Shown here in pieces: positions 8,126 to 22,811 of a stretch of 24,356 nucleotides of DNA. The notes below the pieces were generated by a model. That model had not been told where the DNA came from, ran no database searches, and was given only the letters and a program-made list of their open reading frames with translations. The stretch comes from a virus. Location of the stretch: IMG/VR virus record IMGVR_UViG_3300005559_000021, positions 1 through 24,356 of that record; one strand, 5' to 3'. The number at the start of each line of letters is the position of its first letter. Position 1 is the first letter of the stretch. Both the position numbers and the translations under genes were made by a program.

Positions 8126-10005
8126 CATCCGCGATTCGCGATGCGTGGACCGCGCCGTTTCGCGGTGAGATTTACGAGTTTGCCGGCGCGCTGAACCTCC
8201 AGGCCGGCTACTCAGTCAAGGGGCAGTTCGACATTCACTCCGCTCCGTGGCTCATCGAGCCGTTCGAGGCCATCCGCGATCCGCGCGTCCGCGTTGTATC
8301 CATCCAGGCCGGCGTACAAACACTCAAATCGCTTATTGAGGACATCACAATCCCGTATTGGATCCTCCACGACCCCGGCGATTGCCTGTTCCTGCTGGAT
8401 ACCGACCCCAAGGCGCTCCTTTATTGCAGCGGCCGCTTGATGCCTCTCATCCGCAGCGTCCCGGAAATCCAGCGCCTGCTCCTCGAAGTCGCCGACCACG
8501 AGAAAACAAAAACCCGAATCAAATTCCACGCGATGAAGCTGGTCGTGGGCGGCCTGAACGAGGGGAACTGCCAGTCGCTCAGCTACCGCTACGTGATCGT
8601 GGACGAGGCCTGGATGGCCCGCGCCAACGGCCTGCTCCGACAGGCGCGCTACCGGATGACGCAATACCCGGACACCTCCAAGTTCCTCGTCATCGGACAA
8701 GGCGGGATCTGCGACGAGGACGCCGACACGATCCACAAGGAGACCGACCAGCGCGAACTTAACTTCCGCTGCCCGTTCTGCTCGTTCGCGCAGCCATTCG
8801 ACATTTCACGGTTGCGCGGCGAAGACCACCCGAAGCCCGAACTGCGCGGAACCTATTCCGGCCTTTCTTGGGACCGCAACGAAACGACCAAGCCGGGCGG
8901 CCGTTGGAACTGGGACGCGGTCTGGCGCTCGGCTCACATCCGCTGCTACCGGTGCGACGCGCGGATTGAGGACCGGCCCGAAGTGCGCCGGCAACTCTGC
9001 GACAGCTACCACTTCACGCCGACCAATCCCGGCGCGCCAAAAGAACTCGTCGGCTTCCACTGGCCGCAGCCGGCGTCCCCGCGCATCGCGCTGGGCAAGC
9101 TCGCGGTGGCTTACCTCAAGGCGAAGGTCGCCGCCGACGAATTGGGATACCGTCTCCCGCTTCAGGAATTTTACCAGAAGGAGTGGGGCCTGAGCTGGAG
9201 CACAGACACAGCCGACGAGCATCGCGCTGTCATCCACGAGCCCTACGACATTCATTCCGACTGGCCGGAGGAAGCGCACCGCTGCCTGATTGCCGACTGC
9301 CAGCGCGACCTGGCGAAATTCTACGTCAGCGTCTTTGCCGTGGCCCTGTCCGGCGTGGCGCGCGAGTTGGCGCGCGTCACTTGCGCGAGCTTCGACGAAA
9401 TCGGCGCGGTGCAAACTCAATGGAAGGTCAAAGACCAGCACGCCTTTCTCGACTGCGGTTACGAGATGGTCAAGGTCCTCACCGAGTGCGTGCGCCGCGG
9501 CCACGTAGGACTTGTTAAGATCGGAAAGCAGACGCGCAAAGTCTGGCTCTGCTGGACCGGCCTGAAGGGGAGTGGCCAGGAAATGTTCGTTCACGTTCAT
9601 CCGCGAACCAAGGTGAAGGAGTGGCGCATCTACAGCGAGCGCAAATTCTACAACGTGAATCTGGGCAAGGATGGCAAGGGACCGCGCGCTCCTTGGTATG
9701 AGTGGAGCAACCTGCACGCGAAAGACCTCTTGCGTCCCCGTCGCGATGGCGAGCCGACCGTGCCCAAGCTCCGGTTTCTCCCCGACACGCTGCCAAACTC
9801 CGACCCTTATTCGCACTTCGCCCAGATGCGATCCGAACGGCGCGAGGAAAAGTTCGCTAACGGGAAAAAGTCGGCGCGGTGGTTGCTTGTGAAGGAGAGC
9901 CGGCCAAACCACGAGTGGGACAAGTGCGGTATGCTGATGGCGTTCATGGCCATTGTCGGTATCGTGGGGCCAGCAGAACTGACCAGCGAAAATGAACCGA
10001 CCTGA
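8098..10005 (+). CDS. terL: Terminase large subunit (GpA family)
   Basis: 635-residue packaging motor of the lambda gpA family. ATPase: a deviant Walker A at AGVQTLKSL (residues 71-79), Walker B VIVDEAW (166-172), and a following coupling segment (FLVIGQGG). A zinc-ribbon-like pair, RCPFCSF and IRCYRCDARI, lies in the middle. The nuclease domain has LIADCQRDLAKFYV and AFLDCGYEMVKVL, matching the 'D.Q.d......G' and 'DsGy' acidic motifs, with HAKDLL near the end. It pumps DNA into the prohead and cuts the ends. Start: GTG 8098 limits overlap with the previous gene to 28 bases; GTG 8068 would add ten residues. High confidence in family. Confidence 0.93.
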   Translation: MPAKPTDFLASAIRDAWTAPFRGEIYEFAGALNLQAGYSVKGQFDIHSAPWLIEPFEAIRDPRVRVVSIQAGVQTLKSLIEDITIPYWILHDPGDCLFLLDTDPKALLYCSGRLMPLIRSVPEIQRLLLEVADHEKTKTRIKFHAMKLVVGGLNEGNCQSLSYRYVIVDEAWMARANGLLRQARYRMTQYPDTSKFLVIGQGGICDEDADTIHKETDQRELNFRCPFCSFAQPFDISRLRGEDHPKPELRGTYSGLSWDRNETTKPGGRWNWDAVWRSAHIRCYRCDARIEDRPEVRRQLCDSYHFTPTNPGAPKELVGFHWPQPASPRIALGKLAVAYLKAKVAADELGYRLPLQEFYQKEWGLSWSTDTADEHRAVIHEPYDIHSDWPEEAHRCLIADCQRDLAKFYVSVFAVALSGVARELARVTCASFDEIGAVQTQWKVKDQHAFLDCGYEMVKVLTECVRRGHVGLVKIGKQTRKVWLCWTGLKGSGQEMFVHVHPRTKVKEWRIYSERKFYNVNLGKDGKGPRAPWYEWSNLHAKDLLRPRRDGEPTVPKLRFLPDTLPNSDPYSHFAQMRSERREEKFANGKKSARWLLVKESRPNHEWDKCGMLMAFMAIVGIVGPAELTSENEPT

Positions 10006-10757: not shown

Positions 10758-10792
10758 GTTGACCCCTCGGCATTCCCAGAATGCCGGTCAAC
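10758..10792 (+). promoter_or_regulatory. Start-site element: GTTGAC box and start-codon hairpin
   Basis: GTTGAC (10758-10763) lies 17 bases before ATG 10781. CGGCATT (10768-10774) and AATGCCG (10780-10786) form a perfect stem that contains the ATG, and GTTGAC itself pairs with GTCAAC (10787-10792) inside the gene, leaving a four-base bulge. No Shine-Dalgarno sequence is present. The preceding gap also holds CCCGA-N6-TCGGG (10681-10696). The same arrangement recurs at 15365, 17509 and 22802. Confidence 0.5.
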
Positions 10793-11044
10793 TACTACGT
10801 CACCAAGACTGAAGATGAGCTGAAGGTCATGCTCGATGCGCTGCAAAAGCGCACGACCACGGGCTTTGTCTCGCAGACTTCAGCCGCTGGCCTCCAACAA
10901 ATCCGCTCCTTCCAGGGCGGCAGCCGCGTCGAGGTGGAGATCAAGCGGGTCCTTTACTCGCTGTTCGTTCTGCTGCCGGGCATCTACGCCAACCCCTACA
11001 CCTCGCGGATTCGGCGCACGCGGGCCCGATTCACCTTCTCGTGA
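10781..11044 (+). CDS. gpW-like head-tail connector protein
   Basis: 87 residues from ATG 10781. Small size, position directly before the portal and the layout (N-terminal helix DELKVMLDALQKRTTTGFVS, a beta-like GSRVEVEIKRVL, then a hydrophobic helix YSLFVLLPGIYANPY) fit the gpW family, which joins head and tail and is encoded next to the portal in lambda-like phages. The C-terminus is basic. Sequence similarity is only moderate, so the name rests partly on synteny. The start codon is inside a hairpin and lacks a ribosome binding site. The stop overlaps the portal GTG. Confidence 0.5.
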   Translation: MPVNYYVTKTEDELKVMLDALQKRTTTGFVSQTSAAGLQQIRSFQGGSRVEVEIKRVLYSLFVLLPGIYANPYTSRIRRTRARFTFS

Positions 11045-12741
11045 GCGTCTCAATCGACCTCCCGCGCCGGATGCCAGCCTCTCGCCGGCAATCCAAACTG
11101 TTCGGCCCGACCGGACAGCCGGTCTCCTATTTCCTTTACCCGTCACCGCGCCACAACCTGCGCCAGAACCGTCCGCGCTACTGGCTCAGCCCAGACACCA
11201 AATCCAACGTCAGCGAATACGACCGCTGGGAGATGGTCAACTACGCGCGCCAACTGTTCGCGCAAATCGACGTTCTCAACTCGGCGGTCGTCACGAAAAA
11301 CAACTGGGCTTTCGGCGACGCCTGGGACGCTCACTACGCCGGCAACAATCCGGCCTGGGGCGCAGTGGTCGAGGACTGGATTAACAACGTCTGGATGCCC
11401 AACGCGAACGTGCGCGGCCCGCAGTATTCGTTCAAACGCTCGATGCTTCTCTCCGGGATGGCCTGGGACGTTGACGGCGACGACGCGATGGTGCTCACTG
11501 AGAGTGCAAACGGTTTCCCCCAACTCGCTTTCTATCCCTCGACCAAAATCGCTACATACGGCGCCGGACGGATGAGTCCGCAGGGGCAAGCGCCGGGCGG
11601 CATCGTCCAGGGCGGGCCGTTCGACGGCGCCAAGATTTTCGACGGCATCATTCTCGACCGCAACTCGCGAGCCATCGGCCTGCGTATCATCGGGGAGGAC
11701 GGCGATTATCAGGACATATCGGCTTACAATGCGGATCTAGCCTACGAGCCGACCTGGGCCGACCAAGTCAGGGGCATCCCGAAAATAGCGACTTCGTTAC
11801 TCAGATGGATGTCGCTTCAGGACATCGACGAATTCATGCAGCGGGGCGTCAAGCGCGCCGCGTCCATCGGCCTCATCCAGAAAAACGAGGAAGGCGAAGC
11901 CGCGCTCGGCAACGAAGTAATCACCGAGGAGACGGATACACAGGCGCCCACCGGAAGCGGCGCGCAAGTGGCCTATGAGGAGATTGAAGGCGGCGAAATG
12001 TATTACCTCTCATCGGCCGGCAACGAATCCATCGAAGCTCTGACCTACAAAAACCCGCATCCGAACACCGAAAAGTTCGTCGAGCGTATCACGCGGGGAT
12101 GTCTGTCTAGCGTGGGCTGGTTCATAGAGCTGCTCGACCTGACTTCCACCGGGCGCGCCCCGACTCGCGTTCTATGCGAGCTGGCCAACCAATCAATATG
12201 GTCCCGCCAAGGGACTGGATACCGCCGCTGGAAGCGGGCGATTTCCTACGCGGTGATGAAGCAGATGAAACGCGGCGGCCTGCCGCGCAACGACGACACC
12301 GTGGACGCGCTCTCGTGGGAGCCAGGCCTGCCCAAGCCCTTGAGCGTGGACGCGGGCAACGACGCGCAGGCGGACCGCGAGTCCCTGAAGCTGGGCACAA
12401 CGAACAAAATGATTTTGGCCCAGAAATGGCACGGCATGCACTACCGCGGCCTGGACGACCAGCGGGACAAGGAACTGCGCGAGACCGTCGGTCGGGCAGT
12501 GCGAATCAACAAGGATTTCCCGCAGGTCCCGTTCGAGCGCGCATTGGAACTGCTCGAACAGCGCAGCCCGAATCCGATTTCGACCAAGATCACGGAGACA
12601 GCGAGCGCGCCCAAGAGCAAAGGAGCCGCAGCAACCTTCAACGTCTCTTTGCCCGAAGAACAGAAAAACCGCCGCGTGAAATTCATCCGCGCCAGCGATG
12701 GCTCCCTCACGGGCGCGGAAGTGGAAAATCAGACGGATTAG
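11041..12741 (+). CDS. Portal protein (lambda gpB family)
   Basis: 566 residues from GTG 11041, overlapping the previous stop by GTGA. Portal of the lambda family: the N-terminal region WEMVNYARQLFAQIDVLNSA (residue 61 on) corresponds to the conserved 'R.L..ns..~~~ai' helix; the middle has GDDAMVL, a long central helix WMSLQDIDEFMQRGVKRAAS, and the C-terminal stretch has ITRGCLSSVGWFIELLDLTS, equivalent to 'ia.~lGv~ye.l..d'. The C-terminal 60 residues are polar and variable. Twelve copies form the ring through which DNA is pumped. It ends in TAG, which argues against amber recoding in this genome. Confidence 0.88.
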   Translation: MSVSIDLPRRMPASRRQSKLFGPTGQPVSYFLYPSPRHNLRQNRPRYWLSPDTKSNVSEYDRWEMVNYARQLFAQIDVLNSAVVTKNNWAFGDAWDAHYAGNNPAWGAVVEDWINNVWMPNANVRGPQYSFKRSMLLSGMAWDVDGDDAMVLTESANGFPQLAFYPSTKIATYGAGRMSPQGQAPGGIVQGGPFDGAKIFDGIILDRNSRAIGLRIIGEDGDYQDISAYNADLAYEPTWADQVRGIPKIATSLLRWMSLQDIDEFMQRGVKRAASIGLIQKNEEGEAALGNEVITEETDTQAPTGSGAQVAYEEIEGGEMYYLSSAGNESIEALTYKNPHPNTEKFVERITRGCLSSVGWFIELLDLTSTGRAPTRVLCELANQSIWSRQGTGYRRWKRAISYAVMKQMKRGGLPRNDDTVDALSWEPGLPKPLSVDAGNDAQADRESLKLGTTNKMILAQKWHGMHYRGLDDQRDKELRETVGRAVRINKDFPQVPFERALELLEQRSPNPISTKITETASAPKSKGAAATFNVSLPEEQKNRRVKFIRASDGSLTGAEVENQTD

Positions 12742-12748
12742 AAAATTT

Positions 12749-13153
12749 ATGGCCAATAACCTCAAAACCTCAATCGTATCGCGCAATGCCGAACTCGACG
12801 CGCTGCGCGCGCTCGCTAACTCCGGTCCGCTGCGAATTTACGACGGAACGCAACCGGCCACGCCGGAGACGGCGATCACGACGCAGACGCTACTCGCCGA
12901 ACTCACCATGAACGCGACTGCGTTCCCAGCGTCGTCTGGCGGCGTCATTACGGCCAACGCTATAACCGATGACACAGACGCTAACGCCACCGGCACAGCG
13001 GCCTGGTATCGCCTGCTTGAATCCGACGGCACAACGGTTCTCTGGGACGGCAGCGTTGGCACGGCCAGCGCGGACCTGGTGATGAACTCAGTAGCGATCC
13101 AGATTCACGCGAAGGTCTCCGTGACGAGCTTCACCTATACCCTCCCGCAATGA
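12749..13153 (+). CDS. Conserved virion-associated protein (decoration- or fibre-like)
   Basis: 134 residues from ATG 12749, seven bases after the portal stop. The sequence has the pattern LRIYDGTQPATPETAITTQT, LLAELTMNATAFP, DDTDANATGTAAWYRLLESD and VLWDGSVGTASADLVMNSV, a family common in tailed phages where it is annotated as structural or hypothetical. It is beta-rich with no membrane segment. No Shine-Dalgarno sequence before the ATG. Function in the virion is not established. Confidence 0.65.
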   Translation: MANNLKTSIVSRNAELDALRALANSGPLRIYDGTQPATPETAITTQTLLAELTMNATAFPASSGGVITANAITDDTDANATGTAAWYRLLESDGTTVLWDGSVGTASADLVMNSVAIQIHAKVSVTSFTYTLPQ

Positions 13154-13338
13154 ACGAAGTCACTCTCACGATCACATTCTCGCAAGGCAAACCCCTTCAG
13201 GTCACAGGCCCGCTGCAAGACAAGATTCTCTGCTATGGACTCCTTGAATCCGCGCGGGACGCCATCAAAGAGTTTGCGCCGCCGGCGGTCATTCCCGCTG
13301 CCACAATTCCGAATAACCATTTCGCCCACCGTCTATGA
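13150..13338 (+). CDS. Small hypothetical protein
   Basis: 62 residues from ATG 13150 (ATGA overlap). VTLTITFSQGKPLQVTGPLQ and DKILCYGLLESARDAIKEFA: a beta hairpin followed by a helix. I recognise the 'pl.V.GPl.dKilcYGlLe.Ard.I..f' pattern from other phages, with no known function. Stop overlaps the next ATG. Confidence 0.65.
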   Translation: MNEVTLTITFSQGKPLQVTGPLQDKILCYGLLESARDAIKEFAPPAVIPAATIPNNHFAHRL

Positions 13339-13646
13339 GCGATGCCTACGTCCAGATCGTGCCGGACAGCTCCGGGAAAAAAATCCAAGCCTTCGAGAAC
13401 ATTCTCGGGGCCAATACGGTCGAGGCGCAGGCGGTTACCAGCGTGGACAAGTATGGCACTCCGAGAGGCGTGGACGGCGCGCCGGACATTGTTCAGAGCC
13501 GCACGGTAGACAAACTCCTCACGGAAATTCTCATCGAACTGAGAATCAACAATTTTTACTTTCGCGAACTCAACCCAACGATCCTGCGCGATGGCAGCGA
13601 AGTGCTTTCCCAGGACCTAACCATCACGGCAAATCTGGTCGAATAA
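13335..13646 (+). CDS. Hypothetical virion-module protein
   Basis: 103 residues from ATG 13335 (ATGA overlap). DAYVQIVPDSSGKKIQAFEN, then a helical segment VDKLLTEILIELRINNFYFR, then LNPTILRDGSEVLSQDLTIT. Proteins like this usually accompany phage fibre or baseplate-type genes ('V...p.stGkki......l'). No catalytic motif. Role unknown. Confidence 0.6.
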   Translation: MSDAYVQIVPDSSGKKIQAFENILGANTVEAQAVTSVDKYGTPRGVDGAPDIVQSRTVDKLLTEILIELRINNFYFRELNPTILRDGSEVLSQDLTITANLVE

Positions 13647-13652
13647 AATAAT

Positions 13653-14252
13653 ATGATCACTCAAATTCAGACAGGCATCCAAAGCAACGGCGACGGTCAA
13701 ATCATCCAGGCGCGCGGAGGCAAGCAAGGCGACATGCTCGTTTCCGAGCTTCACGCGCGTTACTACGAGACGACCTACCGCGGAAACATGTTCGGCATCA
13801 CGGGCGCGCTCACGACCACGACGGCGGCTGGCGCGGCCACGTTCACGGGCCTGATTGTCGGCAATCCCGCTGGCTCCGGCTACAACCTGGCAGTCGGCAA
13901 GGTCAGCGTGTTGCAAGGAGCGGCGCTCACGGCTGAAACGGACATCGGCATCATGTACGGGATCAACACAACCACCGTGAGCTTGGCGACAATTTTTAAC
14001 CGCATTGCTGGCGGACGCGCCTCCATCGCCGTTGCCAACGCCGGCCAGACCATCACCGCGATGACATCCTTCATCGTGTTTGCCGGTTCCGGTTCGGGCG
14101 CCATCACGGTGCCGGGCCTGATGCCAATCGTAGGATTGGATTTTGAAGGCAGCCTCATCATTCCGCCCGGTTACGCTTTCGCAAGCTACACCTCGCGCGT
14201 GACAACGACCGCGCTGATGTTCTGTTTCCACTGGGAGGAAGTTCCGATCTAA
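13653..14252 (+). CDS. Hypothetical structural protein, beta-rich
   Basis: 199 residues from ATG 13653 after an AT-rich six-base gap. MITQIQTGIQSNGDGQIIQA, ARYYETTYRGNMFGITGALT, then long Gly/Ala/Thr-rich beta stretches (TTAAGAATFTGLIVGNPAGS, YAFASYTSRVT) and an aromatic end FCFHWEEVPI. It resembles phage proteins encoded with fibre genes where the product is part of the virion. No signal peptide. No ribosome binding site. Confidence 0.65.
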   Translation: MITQIQTGIQSNGDGQIIQARGGKQGDMLVSELHARYYETTYRGNMFGITGALTTTTAAGAATFTGLIVGNPAGSGYNLAVGKVSVLQGAALTAETDIGIMYGINTTTVSLATIFNRIAGGRASIAVANAGQTITAMTSFIVFAGSGSGAITVPGLMPIVGLDFEGSLIIPPGYAFASYTSRVTTTALMFCFHWEEVPI

Positions 14253-14255
14253 GAC

Positions 14256-14277
14256 GGGGTTAGCTTATGCTGACCCT
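14256..14277 (+). promoter_or_regulatory. Hairpin enclosing the 14267 start codon
   Basis: Bases 14256-14264 pair with 14269-14277 (core GGTTAGC/GCTGACC with two G-T pairs) around the loop TTAT (14265-14268). The ATG at 14267 thus lies across loop and stem, with its G opening the 3' arm. No Shine-Dalgarno sequence. Same geometry as at 17509, 18967 and 22802. Confidence 0.45.
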
Positions 14278-15340
14278 ACTATTTTTCCAGGGTTACTCCG
14301 GGACTGGGGCCGCCACGGCTGCGAGCGCTACCGGTGCCGGCGCTGCAAACCTCGTTTTCAGCGGCTCAGGCGCGGGCACCGGGACCGTGGCCACATCTTC
14401 GGCTTCCTGTCTTCTTGTATTCTCCGGCACAGGCGCTGGGACGGCAGCCAAAGCCGCATCGAGCGCGAGTGGAAAACTTATCTTCGCCGGCACCGGCGCG
14501 GCGAGTGCGGCTCGCGCGACATCGTCAGCCAGCGTCCTTCTTGTTTTCTCCGGCAGTGAGTCGGCCACCGCGAAAGCAGCCGCAAGCGCATCTGTAGGGA
14601 AACTTGTCTTCTCGGGAACAGCCATCGACACCGCCGCGCGCGCTACCTCCGCAGCATCCGCCACACTCGCCTTTTCAGGGACGAGCGCGGTCACCGGAAG
14701 AGCGGTGACTTCCAGCGCCAGCGGGCTGTTGGTATTCACCGGAACCGCTGCCGATACTGCGATCAAAGGAACCTCAAGCGCATCTGGACTTGAAATTTTC
14801 ACCGGCACAGGCACCGCGACGGGTCAGGCGACGGGCAGCGCGAGCGGCGCGTTGAGATTCACGGGGAGCGGCGCGGGCACGGGGAGCGCCGGAACTTGCA
14901 GCGCCAGCGATACAAAAAACTTCAGCGGTCAGGCCGGCAACGTGGCGGGCAAGGGCAATGGCAGCGGACACGCCACCCGAACACTCAAACTCGGCGGACA
15001 ATTAGGACCACAACCCGGACAGCGACGCTCCACTCTTGACTGGCTGAAGCTCTGGCGAAACGCCGCGCCCGATCCTGGACCGACGAGAATTAGAATCGCT
15101 GGACGTGCGGAAGCGAGCGCGGCCTCGGCGGCGAGTTCAGGGTCCGGAAAGGTTGTGCCCAGCGTCACCGGAGCGGCTCGCACGGCAGGAGCCAAAGCAT
15201 CTGCCCTGGCGCAATCGCGCAATTTCCGACCGATTATCGGGATGAATCGCGTTCAGGCGAAACGAGCAAAGTTGAACAGTTGCGGTCGGATCAATTTCCC
15301 TGATGAAGAGGAAGTCGCGGCACTCCTGCTGCTGAACTGA
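14267..15340 (+). CDS. Repeat-rich fibre-like protein
   Basis: 357 residues from ATG 14267. After a short hydrophobic start (MLTLLFFQG) come about ten tandem repeats of 21 residues (residues 10-218, one of 20), consensus [FY][ST]G[ST]-x-A-x-T-x3-A-T-S-S-A-S-G-x-L-V. The regular small-residue pattern with one aromatic and one aliphatic position per turn suggests a stacked beta-solenoid or fibrous rod. A Gly/Asn-rich segment and a basic C-terminal part (QRRSTLDWLKLWRN) follow. Likely a fibre, whisker or other extended virion part. No receptor-binding domain or chaperone is recognisable. Confidence 0.65.
   Translation: MLTLLFFQGYSGTGAATAASATGAGAANLVFSGSGAGTGTVATSSASCLLVFSGTGAGTAAKAASSASGKLIFAGTGAASAARATSSASVLLVFSGSESATAKAAASASVGKLVFSGTAIDTAARATSAASATLAFSGTSAVTGRAVTSSASGLLVFTGTAADTAIKGTSSASGLEIFTGTGTATGQATGSASGALRFTGSGAGTGSAGTCSASDTKNFSGQAGNVAGKGNGSGHATRTLKLGGQLGPQPGQRRSTLDWLKLWRNAAPDPGPTRIRIAGRAEASAASAASSGSGKVVPSVTGAARTAGAKASALAQSRNFRPIIGMNRVQAKRAKLNSCGRINFPDEEEVAALLLLN
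14294..14920 (+). repeat. Ten tandem repeats of about 63 bp coding 21 residues
   Basis: Units begin at each [FY][ST]G motif. Eight units of 21 codons, one of 20 and one of 21 fill the stretch. Units diverge at the DNA level but keep the residue pattern, indicating old duplications held by selection on structure rather than recent expansion. Confidence 0.75.
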
Positions 15341-15342
15341 AG

Positions 15343-15348
15343 GTTGAC
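15343..15348 (+). promoter_or_regulatory. GTTGAC box before the 15365 start
   Basis: GTTGAC (15343-15348) followed by CCC lies 16 bases before ATG 15365, one base less than at the three other copies. No perfect start-codon hairpin is seen here; GACAGA (15360-15365) can pair with TCTGTC (15378-15383) around a twelve-base loop. No Shine-Dalgarno sequence. Confidence 0.4.
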
Positions 15349-15364
15349 CCCACGCGGATGACAG

Positions 15365-16579
15365 ATGAAACGATTTCTCTGTCTGATGTCCCTTTTGCTG
15401 TTCGCGGCCTCGGCCTTTTGCGCCTCGCCTTCGGTCCTCGTCACCGTCTCGGACTTCACACTCGACTACTCCGCTCCCAACCGCGTTGTGCGGCTCAACC
15501 CTACTGCGGCCACAGGCGGAACCGCGCGGCGCGGGCTGAGCGATTCAAGCGGGCAAGTGACTTTCGCGAGCGTCACGCCCGGCCTCTGGACTCTGACGAT
15601 TGAAAGCATCGGCGTGCCAGCCCTGAGTCTGCGCGTGCCCAGCAGTTCGGCGACTCTCTCCGCGAGCAATCTTGTAGTGTCAGCCTGGACGCCGCCGACA
15701 CCAGCTACCGCGAGCAGCGCAGCAAACAATCTCCGCGCGTGGTCGCTACTCGTCACTGATCCGCTCGCTTTGCCGGGGGATATTTCACTCGACGGGAAGA
15801 CCAACCGGATCGGCGACAACGGCACGGCGATCACCTACAACGGCACGGCGGCCGGTGGCGGCTCGGCAACGCCGTGGACAACAAATGAAGACGCGGCTGG
15901 TTTCGCGTTGACAAATCTTTCGCAAACGATCTGGAACGACGGCGCTGAAATCTGCAGGATTCAAGGCGGAGGCGGTGCCCGGCAATTTTTCGTGGAATCC
16001 GCAGATGGCGCGCTTGTCAATGATCCAAGCACGGCAAAATTGGCCCTAATAATCTCGGCCACATCGGCCAGTCTGTCGCTTCATCAATTTAATTCCGACG
16101 GCGTTTCTGCCGGTATTCAATTCTACACCTCCACGACAGGGACAAATCGCTTTCCGGCGTTTGAGTTGTTCGATGGTTCTAGTTATTTGGCCCTGCTCGA
16201 TCCAACCGGCCAGGACGGCGACGATAATTATATTTTTGACGCTACGGTTCCGGCATCCAGAATCCTTTCCGTAAGGACAAACGGCACGACCGTTTTCAGC
16301 GTGGCCGCAAGCGGTCTAGCAAGTTCCGTCGCCGGCTTCGCATCAACCGACACAACCGCCGCTGTGAACATCGCGGCAACCGGCTGGACGAACACGTTCG
16401 GGAAAAACGCAGTCGTGTATTACGACGGCATCTCGATCACCGCCAAAGTTTACAACAACGCCGGGATCGCGATCTACACCAACGCGACTGCCCTCGGAGG
16501 CGGCTCAATCCTCCTTCAGCCGAGCGGCAAAGTCATCTTGAGCGGCACAAGCGTCGTGGGCCGCGCAGCGCCGTTTTGA
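15365..16579 (+). CDS. Secreted or fibre-like protein with signal peptide
   Basis: 404 residues from ATG 15365. The N-terminus MKRFLCLMSLLLFAASAFCA is a textbook signal peptide (basic n-region, hydrophobic core, small residues near 18-20). Next comes a beta domain with TVSDFTLDYSAPNRVVRLNP and VTFASVTPGLWTLTIE, resembling the small carbohydrate-contacting domains at the start of phage fibres, then Asn/Gly/Thr-rich repeats typical of tail fibres (TNRIGDNGTAITYNGTAAGG; DDNYIFDATVPASRIL; GWTNTFGKNAVVYYDG). A signal peptide on a virion protein is unexpected; export to the cell surface is the alternative. Preceded by a GTTGAC box. Confidence 0.65.
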   Translation: MKRFLCLMSLLLFAASAFCASPSVLVTVSDFTLDYSAPNRVVRLNPTAATGGTARRGLSDSSGQVTFASVTPGLWTLTIESIGVPALSLRVPSSSATLSASNLVVSAWTPPTPATASSAANNLRAWSLLVTDPLALPGDISLDGKTNRIGDNGTAITYNGTAAGGGSATPWTTNEDAAGFALTNLSQTIWNDGAEICRIQGGGGARQFFVESADGALVNDPSTAKLALIISATSASLSLHQFNSDGVSAGIQFYTSTTGTNRFPAFELFDGSSYLALLDPTGQDGDDNYIFDATVPASRILSVRTNGTTVFSVAASGLASSVAGFASTDTTAAVNIAATGWTNTFGKNAVVYYDGISITAKVYNNAGIAIYTNATALGGGSILLQPSGKVILSGTSVVGRAAPF

Positions 16580-16583
16580 ACAA

Positions 16584-17411
16584 ATGAAATTTCCCCAAAT
16601 CCTCGCAACATTAACCGAAGAGCCGTTGCTCATCACGCCCAACGCCCATGCCGCGCTGCTCAAAATGTTCGAGGAACACGCGACCCTCAGTCGCGAGCAA
16701 TTCAAATCATTGCGCGAAGGAACGGACTTTTGCGGTGACTCAGTCGAGGTGCCCCAAGCCGAAGTCCGCGACGGCATCATGTACCTGCCCATCGGCGGGC
16801 CGATCGGCAAGGGCCTTGGCGGATTCGAGAAGGGTGCGGGCTGCGTCGATTGCGCGGACATCTGCGACGAACTCGACAAGATGGAAGAAGACCCGATGTG
16901 CCGCGCGGCCATCCTGGTCATTGATTCACCCGGCGGCATGGTTCAGGGGATCGCCAGCGTCGCCGACAAAATCCTTTCCTGCGACAAACCGATTTACGCT
17001 TTCACCGACGGCCAGATGTGCAGTGCGGCCTACTGGATCGCCTGCTCATCTGACGCGGTGTTCGCAACCGGCGACTCGGATGTTGGATCAATCGGCTCCT
17101 ATTGCTATCTGCTCGACCAGTCCAAGCGATACGCGGACGCGGGCGTTAAGCCGGTGCTGGTGACCAGCGGGAAATTCAAGGGCATGGGCGCTCCAGGAGT
17201 TCCGTTCACCAAGGACCAGATCGCTCTCCTGCAACAGCGGATCGACGACATCAGCGAAAAGTTTTACAGCCACGTCGAGGAGATGCGCGGGGCGGCCAAC
17301 GTCTCGCGCGAAGACATGCAAGGGCAGACCTTCGCGGGGGACAGGGCCGTGACTAACGGTTTGATCGACGACGTCGTGGATGATCTCGACGACGTGGCGG
17401 CGCTGCTCTAA
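16584..17411 (+). CDS. Head maturation protease, S49 family (lambda gpC-like)
   Basis: 275 residues from ATG 16584. S49/SppA-type serine peptidase: AILVIDSPGGMVQGIASVAD (residues 109-128) with the oxyanion 'SPGG' loop, MCSAAYWIA (145-153) with nucleophile Ser147, SDVGSIGSY (165-173), and TSGKFKGMG (194-202) supplying the general-base Lys (Lys197 or Lys199). In lambda-like phages this enzyme trims scaffold and portal during head assembly. It is followed directly by the scaffold and capsid genes, as expected. The fibre-like genes between portal and protease are unusual. Confidence 0.88.
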   Translation: MKFPQILATLTEEPLLITPNAHAALLKMFEEHATLSREQFKSLREGTDFCGDSVEVPQAEVRDGIMYLPIGGPIGKGLGGFEKGAGCVDCADICDELDKMEEDPMCRAAILVIDSPGGMVQGIASVADKILSCDKPIYAFTDGQMCSAAYWIACSSDAVFATGDSDVGSIGSYCYLLDQSKRYADAGVKPVLVTSGKFKGMGAPGVPFTKDQIALLQQRIDDISEKFYSHVEEMRGAANVSREDMQGQTFAGDRAVTNGLIDDVVDDLDDVAALL

Positions 17412-17467
17412 CGCGGTCGCATGTTTCGGCGTTGCTCGCTCCGCGTCGCCCATCTTCGCAAAACCAT
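17408..17467 (-). pseudogene. Relic of an HNH endonuclease C-terminus
   Basis: On the minus strand the 97-base gap after the protease reads LRRWATRSEQRRNMRPR and stops at TAG, complementary to 17408-17410, overlapping the protease stop. RWATRSEQ is the signature of the C-terminal part of HNH homing-type endonucleases ('CRWATr.EQ..N'). The plus-strand bases CCGCGTCGCCCAT (17441-17453) recur at 24311-24323 in the HNH tail at the right edge, encoding WATR there too. Upstream on the minus strand a stop interrupts the frame, so only about 18 codons remain. Chance cannot be excluded for so short a piece. Confidence 0.4.
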
Positions 17468-17474
17468 CTATCCA

Positions 17475-17519
17475 GTCAACCCCGCGTTGACCGCTGGCAA
17501 CTGCCAGAATGCAGTTGCC
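17475..17519 (+). promoter_or_regulatory. Start-site element: GTTGAC box and start-codon hairpin
   Basis: GTTGAC (17486-17491) lies 17 bases before ATG 17509 and also pairs with GTCAAC (17475-17480) just upstream. A perfect nine-base stem, GGCAACTGC (17496-17504) and GCAGTTGCC (17511-17519), encloses the loop CAGAAT; the G of ATG is the first base of the 3' arm. An alternative smaller stem is CTGGCA-AC-TGCCAG (17494-17507). No Shine-Dalgarno sequence. Confidence 0.55.
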
Positions 17520-17967
17520 TGACTTTATTGCCAAGATGCTCGACTTCTCCAAGAAGGCCGAGACCCACTTTGACGCCACAGCCCTCCTCGCCGCAGCCAA
17601 CGCCAAAATCGCCACCCTCGAAGCCGAGAATGCGACGCTCAAGGCCGCCAGCTCGGACTTTGACGCGAAGATCAGCGTGTTGACGACCGACGTGGCCACT
17701 GCGAAAGCGGCCACCGCAGCCAAGGAGACCGAACTAAAAAACGTCCAGGCGCAACTGGCCAAGGCCAACACCAAGGCCGAGGACATTATCACTGGTCAAG
17801 GCCTGCCCCCGAATCAACTCCCGGCAGCCGGCACGGCTGACGCCCAAGGCAAGCAGAAGGAAAACGCCTGGCAGAAATACCAGGAACTCTCCGTCAGCAA
17901 CCCTCGCGAAGCCGGTGCTTACTGGGCCGCGCACGCCGACGAGATTTTGAAGAGCCGCCCCGCGTAA
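17509..17967 (+). CDS. Probable scaffolding protein
   Basis: 152 residues from ATG 17509. Central region of about 80 residues is an Ala/Lys/Glu/Thr-rich coiled coil (ANAKIATLEAENATLKAASS; TAAKETELKNVQAQLAKANT), followed by a Pro/Gly-rich linker (GQGLPPNQLPAAGTAD) and a short C-terminal domain (NPREAGAYWAAHADEILKSR). Helical, charged scaffold proteins with a small C-terminal capsid-binding part are normally encoded between protease and major capsid gene, as here. Assignment is from composition and position; no specific family signature. Confidence 0.6.
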   Translation: MQLPDFIAKMLDFSKKAETHFDATALLAAANAKIATLEAENATLKAASSDFDAKISVLTTDVATAKAATAAKETELKNVQAQLAKANTKAEDIITGQGLPPNQLPAAGTADAQGKQKENAWQKYQELSVSNPREAGAYWAAHADEILKSRPA

Positions 17968-18001
17968 ACGATTTCAGCAACACAACCCACACCCCAATAC
18001 C

Positions 18002-18946
18002 ATGGCCAACACACTCGGCACATTAGCCACCGCGACAATCGTGCAGGAAGCACTCGCCCTCATTTTCACCAAACGCCCGGTCCTTAATTCCATCTCGATG
18101 GGATTCACCGACCGGAACGGCTCACCCATCGCCGCGTTCAATCAATCGGTCATCACGCGCACACTCGGCATCCCGACCGTGCAGAATTTCGGCGGAACAA
18201 TCTCAGCGCGCGGCGACGTGGACGTGAACGTAACACTCGACCAGTTTAAGGAAGTCGGTTACTCCTACACGCCGCAGGAATATAGCGGCACCAACCGCGA
18301 TCTTATACGCGAGGCCGCGGATCCGCTGGCAATCGCGCTAGCCAACCACATGGTTGACGCCATCGCCTCAATCTGGACCATCGGCAATTTCCCCACGCGC
18401 ACCGGCGCGGACGCGGTCGCCAACGGCAGCACGGTCACCAAGACAGTTTTGGGAGCCGGCTGGTCTTACCCGCATTTGACCGATGTGCGAAAGACCCTCA
18501 ATCAATCGGGCGTTCCCGACGCTGGCCGATTTTACGTGGGCAACTCGAACGTCTACGGCTCGCTCCTCACCGATCTGCGCATCGTGGGATTCCTGAACAA
18601 CCAGAGCAACGGCGACGCGATCAAAACGGGCAAATTGCCCGATGTGGCCGGCTTCGGACTGGCTGAATATCCCGGACTCCCCTCGACCGGCAATCTCTGC
18701 GCCTTCTCCGGCACGAAGGATTCGACCGTTTACGCGCACCGCGTTCCTCGCGATCCGCGCGAAGTGATTCCAGGCCTGCCGATTCCCGGCAACATGGGCT
18801 ATGTCACCGAGCCACGCACCGGCCTTACGGTGATGGTGCTTGAATACATCGACCTGGCCACGCTGAACATCGTCACGAAGCTCATCTGGATGTATGGCAA
18901 AGCGGTCGGCAACGCCAACAACGGACAGTTGATCGTCACGGCTTAA
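18002..18946 (+). CDS. Major capsid protein
   Basis: 314 residues from ATG 18002. The sequence MANTLGTLATATIVQEALAL, then ISARGDVDVNVTLDQFKEVG, YTPQEYSGTNRDLIREAADP and the C-terminal GNMGYVTEPRTGLTVMVLEY fits a HK97-fold coat protein of the P22-like or related branch: an N-terminal helix, an extended beta region (E-loop equivalent) and a late beta-strand-rich domain. Position after protease and scaffold supports this. The leader from 17968 is A/C-rich with no Shine-Dalgarno sequence although this should be the most expressed phage gene. A 12-base palindrome CGGCTTAAGCCG (18939-18950) includes the stop codon. Confidence 0.8.
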   Translation: MANTLGTLATATIVQEALALIFTKRPVLNSISMGFTDRNGSPIAAFNQSVITRTLGIPTVQNFGGTISARGDVDVNVTLDQFKEVGYSYTPQEYSGTNRDLIREAADPLAIALANHMVDAIASIWTIGNFPTRTGADAVANGSTVTKTVLGAGWSYPHLTDVRKTLNQSGVPDAGRFYVGNSNVYGSLLTDLRIVGFLNNQSNGDAIKTGKLPDVAGFGLAEYPGLPSTGNLCAFSGTKDSTVYAHRVPRDPREVIPGLPIPGNMGYVTEPRTGLTVMVLEYIDLATLNIVTKLIWMYGKAVGNANNGQLIVTA

Positions 18947-18957
18947 GCCGCTACGGT

Positions 18958-18975
18958 TGGGGCCCTATGGCCTCA
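18958..18975 (+). promoter_or_regulatory. Hairpin enclosing the 18967 start codon
   Basis: TGGGGCC (18958-18964) pairs with GGCCTCA (18969-18975), with one G-T pair, around the loop CTAT (18965-18968). ATG 18967-18969 spans loop and stem and its G opens the 3' arm. GGGG within the 5' arm might act weakly as ribosome binding site but would be paired. Confidence 0.45.
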
Positions 18976-19338
18976 ATTCAAGACCTTCACATCACCGCGG
19001 CCATCCTAGCGAATGGCGCGGTGAAAATACTTTACGCCGGCCTCGATGCCGCTAAAGCGCAGGAGTTTTACTCCCGCGCCGGAACCGATGTCCTTGAAGT
19101 CGGCGTAATATCCCACCCCCAGGCTGTGTTCCCGCGCCGTCCGAACGAGGAAGCCCGTCTCGCAAAAGAATCCGCCGAAGCAGCCGAAGCGCGGGCGCAG
19201 CGCGAGCGGGACAAGCTCGCTATTCTGGCCGAGGCGAAGGAAGCGCAGGCAAAAGCACTGGCCTCCGATGCCAAGGCGATGCGCGATGCGCTGGCGGCGC
19301 AATTGAGAAAATCGGATGTTGCTTCGGGCGGGACTTAG
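18967..19338 (+). CDS. Hypothetical protein with coiled-coil C-terminus
   Basis: 123 residues from ATG 18967. The N-terminal third is a small beta-alpha unit (ASIQDLHITAAILANGAVKI, EFYSRAGTDVLEVG); residues from about 60 are a long Ala/Glu/Lys/Arg helix (ARLAKESAEAAEARAQRERD; LAILAEAKEAQAKALASDAK) likely to form a coiled coil. No family is recognised. It ends in TAG. Located after the capsid gene where head-completion genes often lie. Confidence 0.6.
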   Translation: MASIQDLHITAAILANGAVKILYAGLDAAKAQEFYSRAGTDVLEVGVISHPQAVFPRRPNEEARLAKESAEAAEARAQRERDKLAILAEAKEAQAKALASDAKAMRDALAAQLRKSDVASGGT

Positions 19339-19355
19339 TCCGTAGTGTTCGGGCC

Positions 19356-19796
19356 ATGAAAAAATTCTTCCTATCGCTCTCCGCGTTCGTCCTCTGTTCG
19401 CTCCTGCCGGCCAAAGCCCAGACCTACGGCACGATTGCGGTAACAGCCTGCCCGGCCTCGGTCATCCTCAACACCTCCAGCAATTTCTCGGCTACGATTG
19501 ACACGCGCTACAACCGCAACGTCACCCTGGACATTTACGGCCGATGCCTGACGGCGACGAACACAACGTTTGTTCTGACGTGCGTTCGCTCACTCGATCT
19601 GGCGACTTTCGAGAGCAGTTCTCTTTCTCCGTACGTTTTCACGCTCACGATCCCGACCAACGGAACCACGTATCACCTGCTCACGAACATCGACGTTGGC
19701 GCGTGCGGCTATCTCATCCCGACGAATGCCGCAGCTGGCGCGAGCGGAACGGTGACAAATTGCGGCGTTACGGTCGCCTTGAAGCCGGGGAACTGA
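19356..19796 (+). CDS. Secreted protein with signal peptide, function unknown
   Basis: 146 residues from ATG 19356. MKKFFLSLSAFVLCSLLPAKAQTYG is a signal peptide with a likely cleavage after AKA (residue 21). The mature part is Thr/Asn-rich and beta-like with five Cys (ACPASV, GRCLTA, TCVRSL, ACGYLI, NCGVTV) that could form disulfides outside the cytoplasm. This supports a periplasmic or surface location rather than a place in the head. No family is recognised. Superinfection exclusion or surface change would fit but is speculation. Confidence 0.6.
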   Translation: MKKFFLSLSAFVLCSLLPAKAQTYGTIAVTACPASVILNTSSNFSATIDTRYNRNVTLDIYGRCLTATNTTFVLTCVRSLDLATFESSSLSPYVFTLTIPTNGTTYHLLTNIDVGACGYLIPTNAAAGASGTVTNCGVTVALKPGN

Positions 19797-19806
19797 AAAT
19801 TGCCCG

Positions 19807-19941
19807 GTGAAGCCCGCCTGGTATATCGTCATCCTGGCATGGTTCGCCCTGCTAATGTGCTGGATTTTTTTATTCCGCGCGTGGTTGGCGGTCTTTCGAG
19901 ACCGCAAAGACAAGCGCAAGAATGACTCTCTTGTGAAATGA
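19807..19941 (+). CDS. Small single-pass membrane protein
   Basis: 44 residues from GTG 19807 to TGA 19939-19941. One hydrophobic helix (about residues 5-28, with WYIVILAWFALLMCWIFLF) followed by a basic tail (RDRKDKRKNDSLVK), giving an N-out, C-in topology by the positive-inside rule. The gene follows the secreted protein by ten bases and may be co-expressed with it. The strand shows no other good gene here. Confidence 0.45.
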   Translation: MKPAWYIVILAWFALLMCWIFLFRAWLAVFRDRKDKRKNDSLVK

Positions 19942-20135
19942 AAATCCCGCCCGCTCCGGTGCTCCGTGGTTTGGTGAAGCGGATAACGCCGGGGCGAGGC
20001 GGGAGGCGATTTACCACCCACCCAATGGCGGGCAGCAACGCGAATGTGGGAATCCGAGTGGATGCGATGTTCACGGTAATGCTTCCGCGTGTCGACGCGG
20101 CGCGGTCGTGGTCGAGACCGAGAGTTCGACGATAG
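19938..20135 (+). CDS. Doubtful small ORF after the membrane protein
   Basis: 65 codons from ATG 19938, overlapping the previous stop by ATGA, to TAG 20133-20135. Basic composition (VLRGLVKRITPGRGGRRFTT; VDAARSWSRPRVRR) and no recognisable domain. An open frame also exists on the minus strand (19829-20149), so the coding strand is uncertain. Kept only because of the ATGA coupling. Confidence 0.3.
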   Translation: MKIPPAPVLRGLVKRITPGRGGRRFTTHPMAGSNANVGIRVDAMFTVMLPRVDAARSWSRPRVRR

Positions 20136-20174
20136 TCGCAGGCCAGCAAATTCTTTCGCTCGCGCCGAGTGCCC

Positions 20175-20263
20175 GCCCGCTAGATTTGCGGGTGTCCGGC
20201 GTAGAAAAATCCCGCCGTAGGGCCGAAAGGTCCCGTTGCCGGACTTTGTTCCTGGTCGCAGAG
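20175..20263 (+). ncRNA. Candidate structured RNA before the terminator
   Basis: In a stretch without a convincing gene (20136-20324), successive helices can be drawn: CCCGC-N7-GCGGG (20176-20192); an outer stem GTCCGGC/GCCGGAC (20194-20200/20238-20244); and inside it GGGCC-GAAA-GGTCC (20220-20233 approximately) capped by a GNRA tetraloop. The strong terminator at 20264-20296 follows about 20 bases later. This could be a small phage RNA with its own terminator or only a structured 3' UTR. No known RNA family is recognised. Confidence 0.3.
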
Positions 20264-20296
20264 CCGGGCGCGTTTCGAGGGCGCGCCCGGTTTTTT
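20264..20296 (+). terminator. Rho-independent terminator
   Basis: Perfect nine-base GC-rich stem CCGGGCGCG (20264-20272) and CGCGCCCGG (20282-20290) with a nine-base loop, followed by six T (20291-20296). It would end late transcription from the head genes and isolates the accessory cassette that starts about 30 to 150 bases further on. Confidence 0.85.
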
Positions 20297-20324
20297 CATT
20301 TGCATTCCCGCGCGGTGAGGAGTA

Positions 20325-20441
20325 ATGGACGGGCATGGTTCTGGCGAATCAGAGATTCACCCTTCAACCGTGCCGTCGAACAGGCTTTTCGGCAGAAACC
20401 CTTCTGCCTTCTCTGAGCCTTGCCAGCGACGGCGCGATTGA
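20325..20441 (+). CDS. Possible 38-residue ORF at the head of the accessory cassette
   Basis: ATG 20325 to TGA 20439-20441, with GAGGAG directly upstream (spacing short). The product (MDGHGSGESEIHPSTVPSNR, then LFGRNPSAFSEPC and a basic end) is not low-complexity and reads like protein, but no family is recognised. Its 3' part contains the hairpin GGCAGAA-ACCC-TTCTGCC (20391-20408), and its stop overlaps the AGGAG that serves the next gene, suggesting coupled translation. Confidence 0.35.
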   Translation: MDGHGSGESEIHPSTVPSNRLFGRNPSAFSEPCQRRRD

Positions 20442-20451
20442 GGAGTGAAAT

Positions 20452-20775
20452 ATGAGCGCAACCAACGGGAGGTATAAAACCAAATGGATTGCCGCCGGCA
20501 AACGCGACGGTGTTTTTGAAGGAAGGCGCGATGCGGAGAAAAGTGGGCGAGAGTTTGGCGCTTACTGCCTAGCTCAAAAACTGAAGATCCTACTGGAAGA
20601 GATCGAGAGTAATCTGAACTGTTGGCACCTCAATAAAGAGAAGCTGACCTGGAAGGACGGAGAACAATCGGCTTGGACGATGCAAGAGCTTGCCGAGCGG
20701 TTTGCCAGGGCCGATACGATTATTCAAATCGCGCAGGACATTTGCGCTGCAAACATTCGGGAGGCGGGAATATGA
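20452..20775 (+). CDS. Hypothetical protein of the accessory cassette
   Basis: 107 residues from ATG 20452, preceded by AGGAG at six bases, a clear early-type ribosome binding site. Mostly helical: WIAAGKRDGVFEGRRDAEKS, FGAYCLAQKLKILLEEIESN, MQELAERFARADTIIQIAQD. No catalytic motif. Its stop overlaps the next ATG (20772-20775). The family is unknown to me; the style is that of the early region, not of the surrounding late genes. Confidence 0.65.
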   Translation: MSATNGRYKTKWIAAGKRDGVFEGRRDAEKSGREFGAYCLAQKLKILLEEIESNLNCWHLNKEKLTWKDGEQSAWTMQELAERFARADTIIQIAQDICAANIREAGI

Positions 20776-21614
20776 GCACAAGCACGCCCACAGTCGCGGT
20801 CTCGTCGGAGAAACCCAAAGCTAGGGAGTCCTTGTCCGAAGCCGAAGCCGCCGAACTTCAGAAGCAAGAGAAGTTACTCGCGGCTGGATTCAAATCAATA
20901 CGCGATTGCGCGTCCGCGCTTCGCGTCATCCGGGACAAAAAACTTTATCGCGGCGGATTTGATTCCTTCGAGGAATACTGCGAAGCGAAGTGGCACCGCG
21001 AGCGGACCTCCATTTTCTACCTGCTGAAGTCCGAAGAACAGCGGGAAGAGATGTTGAAAATTTTCAACATGGCAGGGGAGGAGAAAGCCGCTGAACTCGT
21101 CCAGGATTTGTCCGCCAGCGGCGTCCGCGAACTCGTAAAGGTCGAACCGGGGAACCGGATCAAAGTTTTCGAGCAGGCGGTCCAGCAAAGCAACGGAGAA
21201 CCGCCCACGGCGCAAACAATCAGGTCATTCATTGACGCTGGCCTAAAGGCGAGCAAAGCCGTCGAGGCGGAACTTGGACTTACCGGCGAATCGACCAAGC
21301 CGAAGAAGTCCAGGAGAAACTCCAGGCGCGGCCGGCTCAGCAAAAAAGAACTGATGGAAATGGATCGCGAGGAGCAGCGATTTGCGGATTCGATCAGCAA
21401 GCCGCGTCGGAAGCGCGGAGCCAAACCGCCGTCAAAGGACAATGCCGAGGCGCATTTGTCCGATTACGACGAATGGCAGGACGCCCGCGCGGCACGGTGG
21501 CAAAAGGATTTCGGCGCGCGGGCATGGCGCGCTTACAACGCGCAGGTGTTCGAGATCCTGCGCGAAGTTCGCGGCTGGTGGGAAAATCGGATCAAAGCGG
21601 AGTTTGTCAAATGA
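20772..21614 (+). CDS. Probable DNA-binding protein with SFEEYC motif
   Basis: 280 residues from ATG 20772 (ATGA overlap; GGAGGCGGG upstream). Residues 40-85 read AALRVIRDKKLYR-type sequence leading to FDSFEEYCEAKWHRERTSIF, i.e. the 'AL..Ird.kLYr....sFEeYc..rWg..rs.~Y.l' pattern found in many plasmid and phage proteins next to partition, methylase or nuclease genes, likely a winged-helix or HTH-like DNA-binding unit. A Lys/Arg-rich linker (KPKKSRRNSRRGRLSKKELM) and a C-terminal helical part (DEWQDARAARWQKDFGARAW) follow. Not a ParB nuclease by motif. Related in style to the DUF3102-like protein at 5524-6081. Confidence 0.65.
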   Translation: MSTSTPTVAVSSEKPKARESLSEAEAAELQKQEKLLAAGFKSIRDCASALRVIRDKKLYRGGFDSFEEYCEAKWHRERTSIFYLLKSEEQREEMLKIFNMAGEEKAAELVQDLSASGVRELVKVEPGNRIKVFEQAVQQSNGEPPTAQTIRSFIDAGLKASKAVEAELGLTGESTKPKKSRRNSRRGRLSKKELMEMDREEQRFADSISKPRRKRGAKPPSKDNAEAHLSDYDEWQDARAARWQKDFGARAWRAYNAQVFEILREVRGWWENRIKAEFVK

Positions 21615-21889
21615 CTGCCGACGAAGCTCAAAGAGAAATTGTTGAGGCGCTTTTCAACGTCGCCAAGCATGCGGCGCCGCATGAGTTCCAGGTTTTTTTC
21701 GCCGGCATCATCAGCAACGTGGTCGGCAACATGAGCGAAGACTGCTGGCGGGAATTCCGAAAAATAAAGCCGTGCGGGACCGTTGGTTGCGACTGTCACC
21801 TTATCATGCCGATTGTAATGCAAGCCCTCGAAGCGCTTCGCGAGGATCACCGGAACCATCTGTCCGAAACAAAAACACTCAGCGCGTGA
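21611..21889 (+). CDS. Hypothetical protein
   Basis: 92 residues from ATG 21611 (ATGA overlap). Helical, with FFAGIISNVVGNMSEDCWRE and a Cys/His cluster CGTVGCDCHLIMPIVMQALE followed by ALREDHRNHLSE. The C-x4-C-x-C-H cluster may bind metal. I recognise the '..C.CH...mpv....~alRedH..h' style from other phages but no function is known. Confidence 0.6.
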   Translation: MTADEAQREIVEALFNVAKHAAPHEFQVFFAGIISNVVGNMSEDCWREFRKIKPCGTVGCDCHLIMPIVMQALEALREDHRNHLSETKTLSA

Positions 21890-21890
21890 A

Positions 21891-22184
21891 ATGGGCAAGG
21901 TCCGCATAATTCAAAAGCTGTGCCCGGAGCGGCACTGCATCGTCGCGGCGGCCTACGTCGAAGGAGAGGAAATCTCCGAGAGCGTGAAAGCCATGCTCGC
22001 GCAGATAGAGGCGGGACTCGGCGCCCACCCGTGGTGTGGCATCTGCGGCTCGGCGGCTCTGCGGTGGGAAGACTCTGCCACGCGATTCGACACGATGGAG
22101 GAAGCGCGGCCCTGGCTGGAAAAAACGCAGGCCGCGAATCTGGCCGCGATGCGGCTCTTCTCGGCACAGCCCAAACCCAATTGA
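21891..22184 (+). CDS. Hypothetical protein with CxxC (WCGICGS)
   Basis: 97 residues from ATG 21891, one base after the previous stop. RIIQKLCPERHCIVAAAYVE, then AHPWCGICGSAALRWEDSAT and FDTMEEARPWLEKTQAANLA. The 'kLCPeRH......Y......NPWCglCgs....E...t.f.tmeeA...l...e.aNl' pattern belongs to a phage family of unknown function, probably zinc-binding through the CPxxH and CxxC pairs. The stop overlaps the next start. Confidence 0.65.
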   Translation: MGKVRIIQKLCPERHCIVAAAYVEGEEISESVKAMLAQIEAGLGAHPWCGICGSAALRWEDSATRFDTMEEARPWLEKTQAANLAAMRLFSAQPKPN

Positions 22185-22567
22185 CTGTGGGCATCTCCCA
22201 ATTTCAACTGGACGCGATGCTGTCGCGGATGGCGCACAACAAGGCGCGTCGCAATGGAGATCCGGAACCGGAGGCGCAACCAGCCGAGCGCGAGCGCGGA
22301 CTCCACGACGAAATTCTTTTGGCGTGTTCCGAGCGCGGTTGGCTCGTCATCCATTCGAGAATGGATCTGCCTTCCACTGTCGGCATCGGCACAGCCGACT
22401 TCGTCATACTCGCCGACGGAGGACGGACGCTGCTGGTCGAGGCCAAGGCGCGAAACGGGAAGCCGACGGCGGCTCAACTCGCCTGGCTCGCCTGGGCGAA
22501 GAAGCTCGGACACCGGGGCGCGGTCGTGCGCTCGCTCGCGGAGTTTTTGAAGTTTGTGGAGGAATGA
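22181..22567 (+). CDS. VRR-NUC domain nuclease
   Basis: 128 residues from TTG 22181 (TTGA overlap with the previous stop); GTG 22187 is a close alternative. The VRR-NUC fold (PD-(D/E)XK type, Holliday-junction-resolvase-like) is shown by ERGLHDEILLACSERGWLVI (helix with the first acidic residue, Glu44), VGIGTADFVI (67-76) with Asp73, LLVEAKARNG (84-93) with Glu87 and Lys89, and TAAQLAWLAWAKKLG (96-110) with Gln99. These residues match the active site. Phage stand-alone VRR-NUC proteins are thought to resolve branched DNA. It sits directly before a methyltransferase fragment. Confidence 0.88.
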   Translation: MTVGISQFQLDAMLSRMAHNKARRNGDPEPEAQPAERERGLHDEILLACSERGWLVIHSRMDLPSTVGIGTADFVILADGGRTLLVEAKARNGKPTAAQLAWLAWAKKLGHRGAVVRSLAEFLKFVEE

Positions 22568-22776
22568 TTCCCTCGCTCCAAATCCTTCAAGGCGACGCGC
22601 TCCAGGTCCTGAAAACTTTGGCGTCGGATTCGGTTCATTGCGTCGTTACCAGCCCGCCGTTTTGGGGCCTGCGAGATTACGGAACGGCGCAGTGGGACGG
22701 GGGCGATCTGGCGTGCGACCACAACGCCCGAAGCGGCGACTTGCGCTTCACGCATCCCGGTCTCACGCTCGCCTGA
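22564..22776 (+). pseudogene. Truncated DNA methyltransferase, N-terminal fragment
   Basis: 70 residues from ATG 22564 (ATGA overlap, GGAGG adjacent). LQGDALQVLKTLASDSVHCV followed by VTSPPFWGLRDYG is the start of an N4-cytosine/N6-adenine DNA methyltransferase: the SPPFWGLRDYG box is catalytic motif IV. WDGGDLACDH follows, as in full-length homologues, then TRSGDL-like sequence unrelated to the family and a stop at 22774-22776. Complete enzymes are usually well over 200 residues with a SAM-binding FxGxG motif, which is absent here. The fragment ends 25 bases before the next virion gene, so a deletion probably joined the two. Unlikely to be active. Confidence 0.7.
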
Positions 22777-22778
22777 TT

Positions 22779-22811
22779 GTTGACCCCCGCCCGTTGCCGA
22801 CATGGCAACGG
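22779..22811 (+). promoter_or_regulatory. Start-site element: GTTGAC box and start-codon hairpin
   Basis: GTTGAC (22779-22784) lies 17 bases before ATG 22802. A perfect eight-base stem, CCGTTGCC (22791-22798) and GGCAACGG (22804-22811), encloses the loop GACAT; the G of ATG opens the 3' arm. No Shine-Dalgarno sequence. It marks the switch from accessory genes back to virion genes. Confidence 0.55.

Follow-up and report, generated by a model that had tools for sequence, protein, structure and literature searches.

In phage T4, the start codon of the lysis gene e is gated by an inhibitory hairpin, and the gene is served by a late promoter (PMC3014915). In phage Mu, an inhibitory stem encloses the start codon of mom, the site for its activator lies immediately upstream, and translation is activated by Com (PMC6483171). 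The locus described here shows start codons of late genes enclosed in stems, some of which are preceded at a nearly constant distance by a GTTGAC box. The window, meaning the whole stretch of DNA that was analysed, is the 24,356-base IMG/VR virus record IMGVR_UViG_3300005559_000021, which belongs to a lambda-like tailed phage and is spanned in full by a near-identical record of 39 kb. It encodes a terminase large subunit (8068-10005), a portal (11041-12741), an S49 head protease (16584-17411) and a major head protein (18002-18946), with gene starts derived from open reading frames rather than from annotation or proteomics. Terminases 83% and 56% identical to that of the window are found in metagenome-assembled contigs labelled Verrucomicrobia and Chthoniobacteraceae, and a Verrucomicrobiota genome (G001) contains orthologues of window genes; judged from these sequence relationships, the host is therefore a member of the Verrucomicrobiota. 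No close annotated relative was found in INPHARED, where the protease query returned distant ones only, and no curated Rfam family matched the window. Immediately 5' of the gene at 6674, the palindrome GGACAAATCGTGTCC occurs twice in tandem (6632-6673), resembling an operator or protein-binding array. In the late region, a long inverted repeat rich in GC, with TTTTTT after it (20262-20297), is a probable intrinsic terminator.

The original prediction placed stems over the ATG codons at 10781, 14267, 17509, 18967 and 22802, and all five, on the plus strand, were recovered. They consist of TCGGCATTC-cca-GAATGCCGG (10767..10787, ATG 10781, score 22), GGGTTAGC-TTAT-GCTGACCC (14257..14276, ATG 14267), GGCAACTGC-cagaAT-GCAGTTGCC (17496..17519, 9 bp, ATG 17509), TTGGGGCC-CTAT-GGCCTCAA (18957..18976, ATG 18967) and CCGTTGCC-gacAT-GGCAACGG (22791..22811, 8 bp, ATG 22802). 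The hairpin at 10781 is extended by an outer pairing of GTTGACC (10758-10764) with GGTCAAC (10786-10792). As had been proposed, in the other four stems the loop (TTAT, CAGAAT, CTAT and GACAT, respectively) ends in AT and the G of the ATG is the first base of the 3' arm. This arrangement is not a constant, and the ATG may be placed in the loop, at the junction of loop and 3' arm, or in an arm. The gene at 14267-15340 encodes degenerate repeats (LLVFSGTG..ATSSAS), has no relative in Pfam or PHROGs, and possibly specifies a fibre-like protein.

Every stem covering a start codon with a loop of 3-9 nt was scored by a simple pairing count (GC 3, AT 2, GU 1). Late starts split sharply, with the five stems scoring 21-24 and every other late start 11 or less, and none of the 20 early starts reached 18. 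Scores of at least 20 were thus obtained for 5/24 late versus 0/20 early starts (Fisher P 0.053); among 263 internal ATGs the share was 0.8% (for the late excess, binomial P about 1e-6 and Fisher 5e-5). These nominal P values are too flattering because the threshold was set post hoc and the examples had been picked beforehand. Strong stems were rarer at internal ATGs and were not seen at early starts, and the assignment of the stem-bearing genes to the late class held.

The constant part of the arrangement is the box rather than the stem: GTTGAC, first taken for an extension of a single stem, recurs at starts of which roughly a quarter carry a strong hairpin. Within the window it is located, always on the plus strand, at 10758..10763 (23 nt before ATG 10781), at 15343..15348 (22 nt before ATG 15365, where there is no strong hairpin), at 17486-17491 (23 nt before ATG 17509) and at 22779..22784 (23 nt before ATG 22802). 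Orthologues of the genes at 10781, 17509 and 22802 keep GTTGAC 22-24 nt before the start despite changed flanking letters. For 10781, the box is present 22-23 nt before ATG or GTG in 5/5 orthologues (L084, L085, L086, L087 and L004); the hairpin itself is kept in L084 and L087, L086 has in its place another stem of unchanged geometry (GTTGGC-gaaGT-GCCAAT) that fits its altered codons, and box-code pairing takes over in L085 and L004. The box of 15365 has its counterpart in L004 (at 7180, 22 nt, MKRFLLL). The box of 17509 is the 3' arm of a second hairpin, GTCAAC-cccgc-GTTGAC (17475..17491), a layout shared by L004, whereas L003 has the box alone; this pairing of box with upstream anti-box is possibly a second gating layer. 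The start-codon hairpin of the same gene has one pair broken in L004 and is absent from L003. For 22802, the box is conserved in the G001 prophage of Verrucomicrobiota (L113) and in a further record, G391 (L299), both of which keep the hairpin as GCCGTTGCTG-aaa-TGGCAACGGC, and the L003 orthologue reads GCTGAC at 24 nt. The stems at 14267 and 18967 have no GTTGAC box and are unsupported by sequence comparison: the former is carried elsewhere only by a near-identical twin record, too similar to judge conservation, and the L003 orthologue of the latter has neither box nor stem.

Beyond the window's family, GTTGAC (core TTGAC) is found 20-24 nt before ATG or GTG at late genes of many other Verrucomicrobiota tailed phages and prophages, including prophages within sampled Verrucomicrobiota genomes. 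On phage contigs collected by S49 protease homology, it occurs 89, 36, 19, 32, 19 and 16 times at 20 to 25 nt before ATG, respectively, compared with approximately 3 per position elsewhere, and no other hexamer is as enriched at -25..-19 (31 genes, versus 1 at a control position further upstream). The first base may vary, and single substitutions at bases 2-6 show no clear enrichment. The boxed genes are many and unrelated, encoding endolysin, terminase small subunit, head closure, S49 protease, a scaffold-like product, tRNA methyltransferase and unknowns; one phage tRNA methyltransferase-like gene (L024:3162-3908, phrog_4752) has both a late box and a start-codon hairpin. Counted over whole phage records, boxes mostly share a single strand, by 9:0 and 7:0 for the window's family; in several further phages there is a single box or none. 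Since the box sometimes falls within the last codons of an overlapping upstream gene and is scarcely found more than 25 nt before a start, it is linked to the start codon and not to the preceding gene. A stop codon of the upstream gene inside the box (the TGA of GTTGAC) was seen in 18/90 cases only and is not general.

The box is nearly confined to phage genes. The counts over 58 Verrucomicrobiota genomes are 5244 for GTTGAC-N14-18-ATG and 5295 for the shifted pattern GTTGAC-N23-27-ATG, which leaves no spacing excess; an apparent host-wide excess over the reversed pattern was rejected as codon-phase background on this comparison. Among 272 host genes examined, a box at 19-25 nt was seen in three, including one prophage gene. 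Boxed starts also lack Shine-Dalgarno sites: GGAG-like sites 4-16 nt before the start are found at 6.5% of them, under the 10.5% control, and compare with 19% at unboxed phage starts and 17% at host starts. In the one host 16S rRNA that was retrieved, the anti-Shine-Dalgarno end is normal and GUCAAC, the complement of the box, does not occur, which rules out for this molecule a pairing of the box with the tail or any other part of 16S.

Leader and code are matched at boxed starts, as the original prediction had it. The relatives supply a test independent of the window's chosen examples: across 68 boxed gene families, the stem score between spacer and first codons averaged 10.3, against 8.9 for swapped leaders (z 4.35, P about 0.001), and stems scoring at least 14 numbered 18 versus 5.0 expected. 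In this control, which keeps composition, spacers were exchanged between genes of equal spacing and each family was counted once, with hand-chosen deduplication thresholds. No such excess over swaps was found at unboxed starts of the same contigs, in host genes or in other phages. Conservation of the pairing holds for some boxed starts, with letters changed, and finds no support for 14267 and 18967. The endolysin gene has ATCGGGT-gcATGG-ACCCGAT in one orthologue and GGCGGGT-ATGG-ACCCGCT in another; with one or two exceptions, its starts fold so that the loop holds the ATG, and a single I-to-L codon replacement has its counterpart in the leader (T-A to G-C). For the terminase small subunit there are two stems that bear no relation to each other, TCCAT..ATGGA and GCTCC-tccAT-GGAGC, one each for the MEP and MEQ subfamilies. 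A hairpin wholly between box and start, in the style of T4 gene 25, was rejected as the general layout (mild excess, z -2.9, clear in few genes); three boxed starts (L038:4272, L069:3608 and L075:1704) do have a strong hairpin there, e.g. TCCGCA-acc-TGCGGA.

We tentatively interpret box and hairpin as a cis-acting start element for late genes of Verrucomicrobiota tailed phages that is read on the mRNA, the box replacing the Shine-Dalgarno site and the hairpin gating the start. The TTGAC-core box would take the place of the Shine-Dalgarno site at a distance of 20-24 nt upstream of the start, and for part of the genes pairing between spacer and first codons would close the start codon in a hairpin. 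A putative trans-acting reader, phage-borne or phage-induced, would bind the box, open or bypass the hairpin and load the ribosome, so that late genes might be switched on one by one. Reading on the mRNA is favoured because the box is linked to the start codon even inside overlapping gene ends, and an RNA stem closing the start because pairing is kept while sequence varies; together these lead us to prefer a translational gate, comparable to Com for Mu mom. The action on translation, the existence of a reader and the timing are what we infer here. The translational operator of the original prediction thus remains the likeliest reading, in line with the leader-code match, the late genes and the missing Shine-Dalgarno sites, with its emphasis shifted from the stem to the box. 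A wider version, which we regard as no better than speculative, is that the TTGAC box is a phage-specific non-Shine-Dalgarno start signal, common to divergent phages of one phylum, through which a putative factor directs Verrucomicrobiota ribosomes to the starts of phage late genes and opens the hairpins over them. The reader itself did not emerge from a comparison of eight box phages: packaging and head proteins were the only ones common to all, and a ParB-like protein was present in 6/8. A search for the Com zinc-ribbon (PF10122) gave 0/14 phage records at E up to 1, and no phage-borne S21 homologue scored over the cut-off.

Against a translational gate count the failure of these searches to find a reader, the boxed starts without a strong hairpin (roughly three quarters) and the letters of the box, TTGAC(A) being the bacterial -35 consensus and so a hint at transcription. 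The main rival reading, possible though rather doubtful to us, treats the box as the core element of a late promoter of the phage, with transcripts starting 0-4 nt before the start codon; the hairpin would then be limited to mRNA that reads through from promoters further upstream and includes the 5' arm, and would silence it, as for T4 gene e. No Shine-Dalgarno site would be needed, because the mRNA is near-leaderless. Consistent with this, a C-purine lies approximately 20 nt downstream of the box's first base in the two main spacing classes, k=20 and k=23 (for k=23, C in 17/27, P 0.002), resembling a transcription start, most 5' arms end 17-20 nt after that base, and a well conserved hairpin is on the endolysin gene, the kind of gene gated so in T4 (PMC3014915). 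The C-purine is, however, absent from the 22- and 24-nt classes. Of the two features of gene e type silencing, pairing of the start codon with the upstream leader is found for a subset of boxed genes; for a putative late promoter that would remove the 5' arm there is the C-purine of two spacing classes only, in an arrangement that corresponds to no known promoter geometry. Sigma promoters do not start 20 nt after a -35 box, the spacer is GC-rich with no AT-rich -10, boxes with longer leaders are lacking, host genomes show no excess, and sigma region 4 had no match over the cut-off in 14 phage records. A sigma-70 promoter proper was rejected: the -10 hexamer, approximately 17 nt after TTGACA, would sit in or next to codons 1-3, where base profiles have no TATAAT-like composition.

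The C-purine signal and the end positions of the 5' arms would equally suit an endonuclease that cuts near the start codon, at a place marked by box and hairpin, and so cleaves off the 5' arm to leave an mRNA with no leader; no nuclease candidate was found, and we hold this to be very unlikely. It is also improbable, if somewhat less far-fetched, that only the box matters and that the stems are a by-product of GC-rich leaders beside GC-rich code, the window's five being a lucky draw. Such a by-product would account for the roughly three quarters of boxed starts at which a strong stem is missing, and for 14267 and 18967, which lack a box and gain no support from relatives; against it, the composition-keeping leader swap still yields the z of 4.35, and the excess is not seen at unboxed starts or in host genes.

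A start-linked box in divergent late genes and phages of one phylum, with no excess in the host, implies a dedicated late-gene reader, which had no description in the literature searched; nor did that search return a paper connecting the box with Verrucomicrobia or with phage starts. If the box acts on translation, it would represent a new way to choose start codons without a Shine-Dalgarno site, and if it acts on transcription, a new promoter type. Either way, it can serve in practice to recognise Verrucomicrobiota phages and, within their genomes, late genes and the true starts of genes.

Similar to T4 genes e, soc, 49 and I-TevI, the box phages have late genes whose start codon is closed in a hairpin, and one of their best conserved cases is, like T4 gene e, a lysis gene. 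T4, in contrast, comes with a Shine-Dalgarno site and with a late promoter that has been mapped (TATAAATA), where the box phages have a TTGAC box set at a constant spacing from the start and no Shine-Dalgarno site, and, unlike T4, they carry many such genes per phage. With Mu mom they share an inhibitory stem over the start codon and a signal upstream, but in Mu a single gene is concerned and Com binds a hairpin-loop motif, whereas the box is linear, serves many genes and is accompanied by no Com homologue. The split ribosome sites of T4 genes 25 and 38 are alike in having a signal approximately 22-27 nt upstream and structure between signal and start; their signal is a Shine-Dalgarno sequence and their hairpin lies between it and the AUG, while in the box phages the hairpin mostly covers the AUG itself, and the box lacks complementarity to the 16S tail (one host 16S). 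The sigma-70 -35 element, finally, has the same TTGAC(A) letters, but the box stands instead 20-24 nt before a start codon and is followed by no -10 element.
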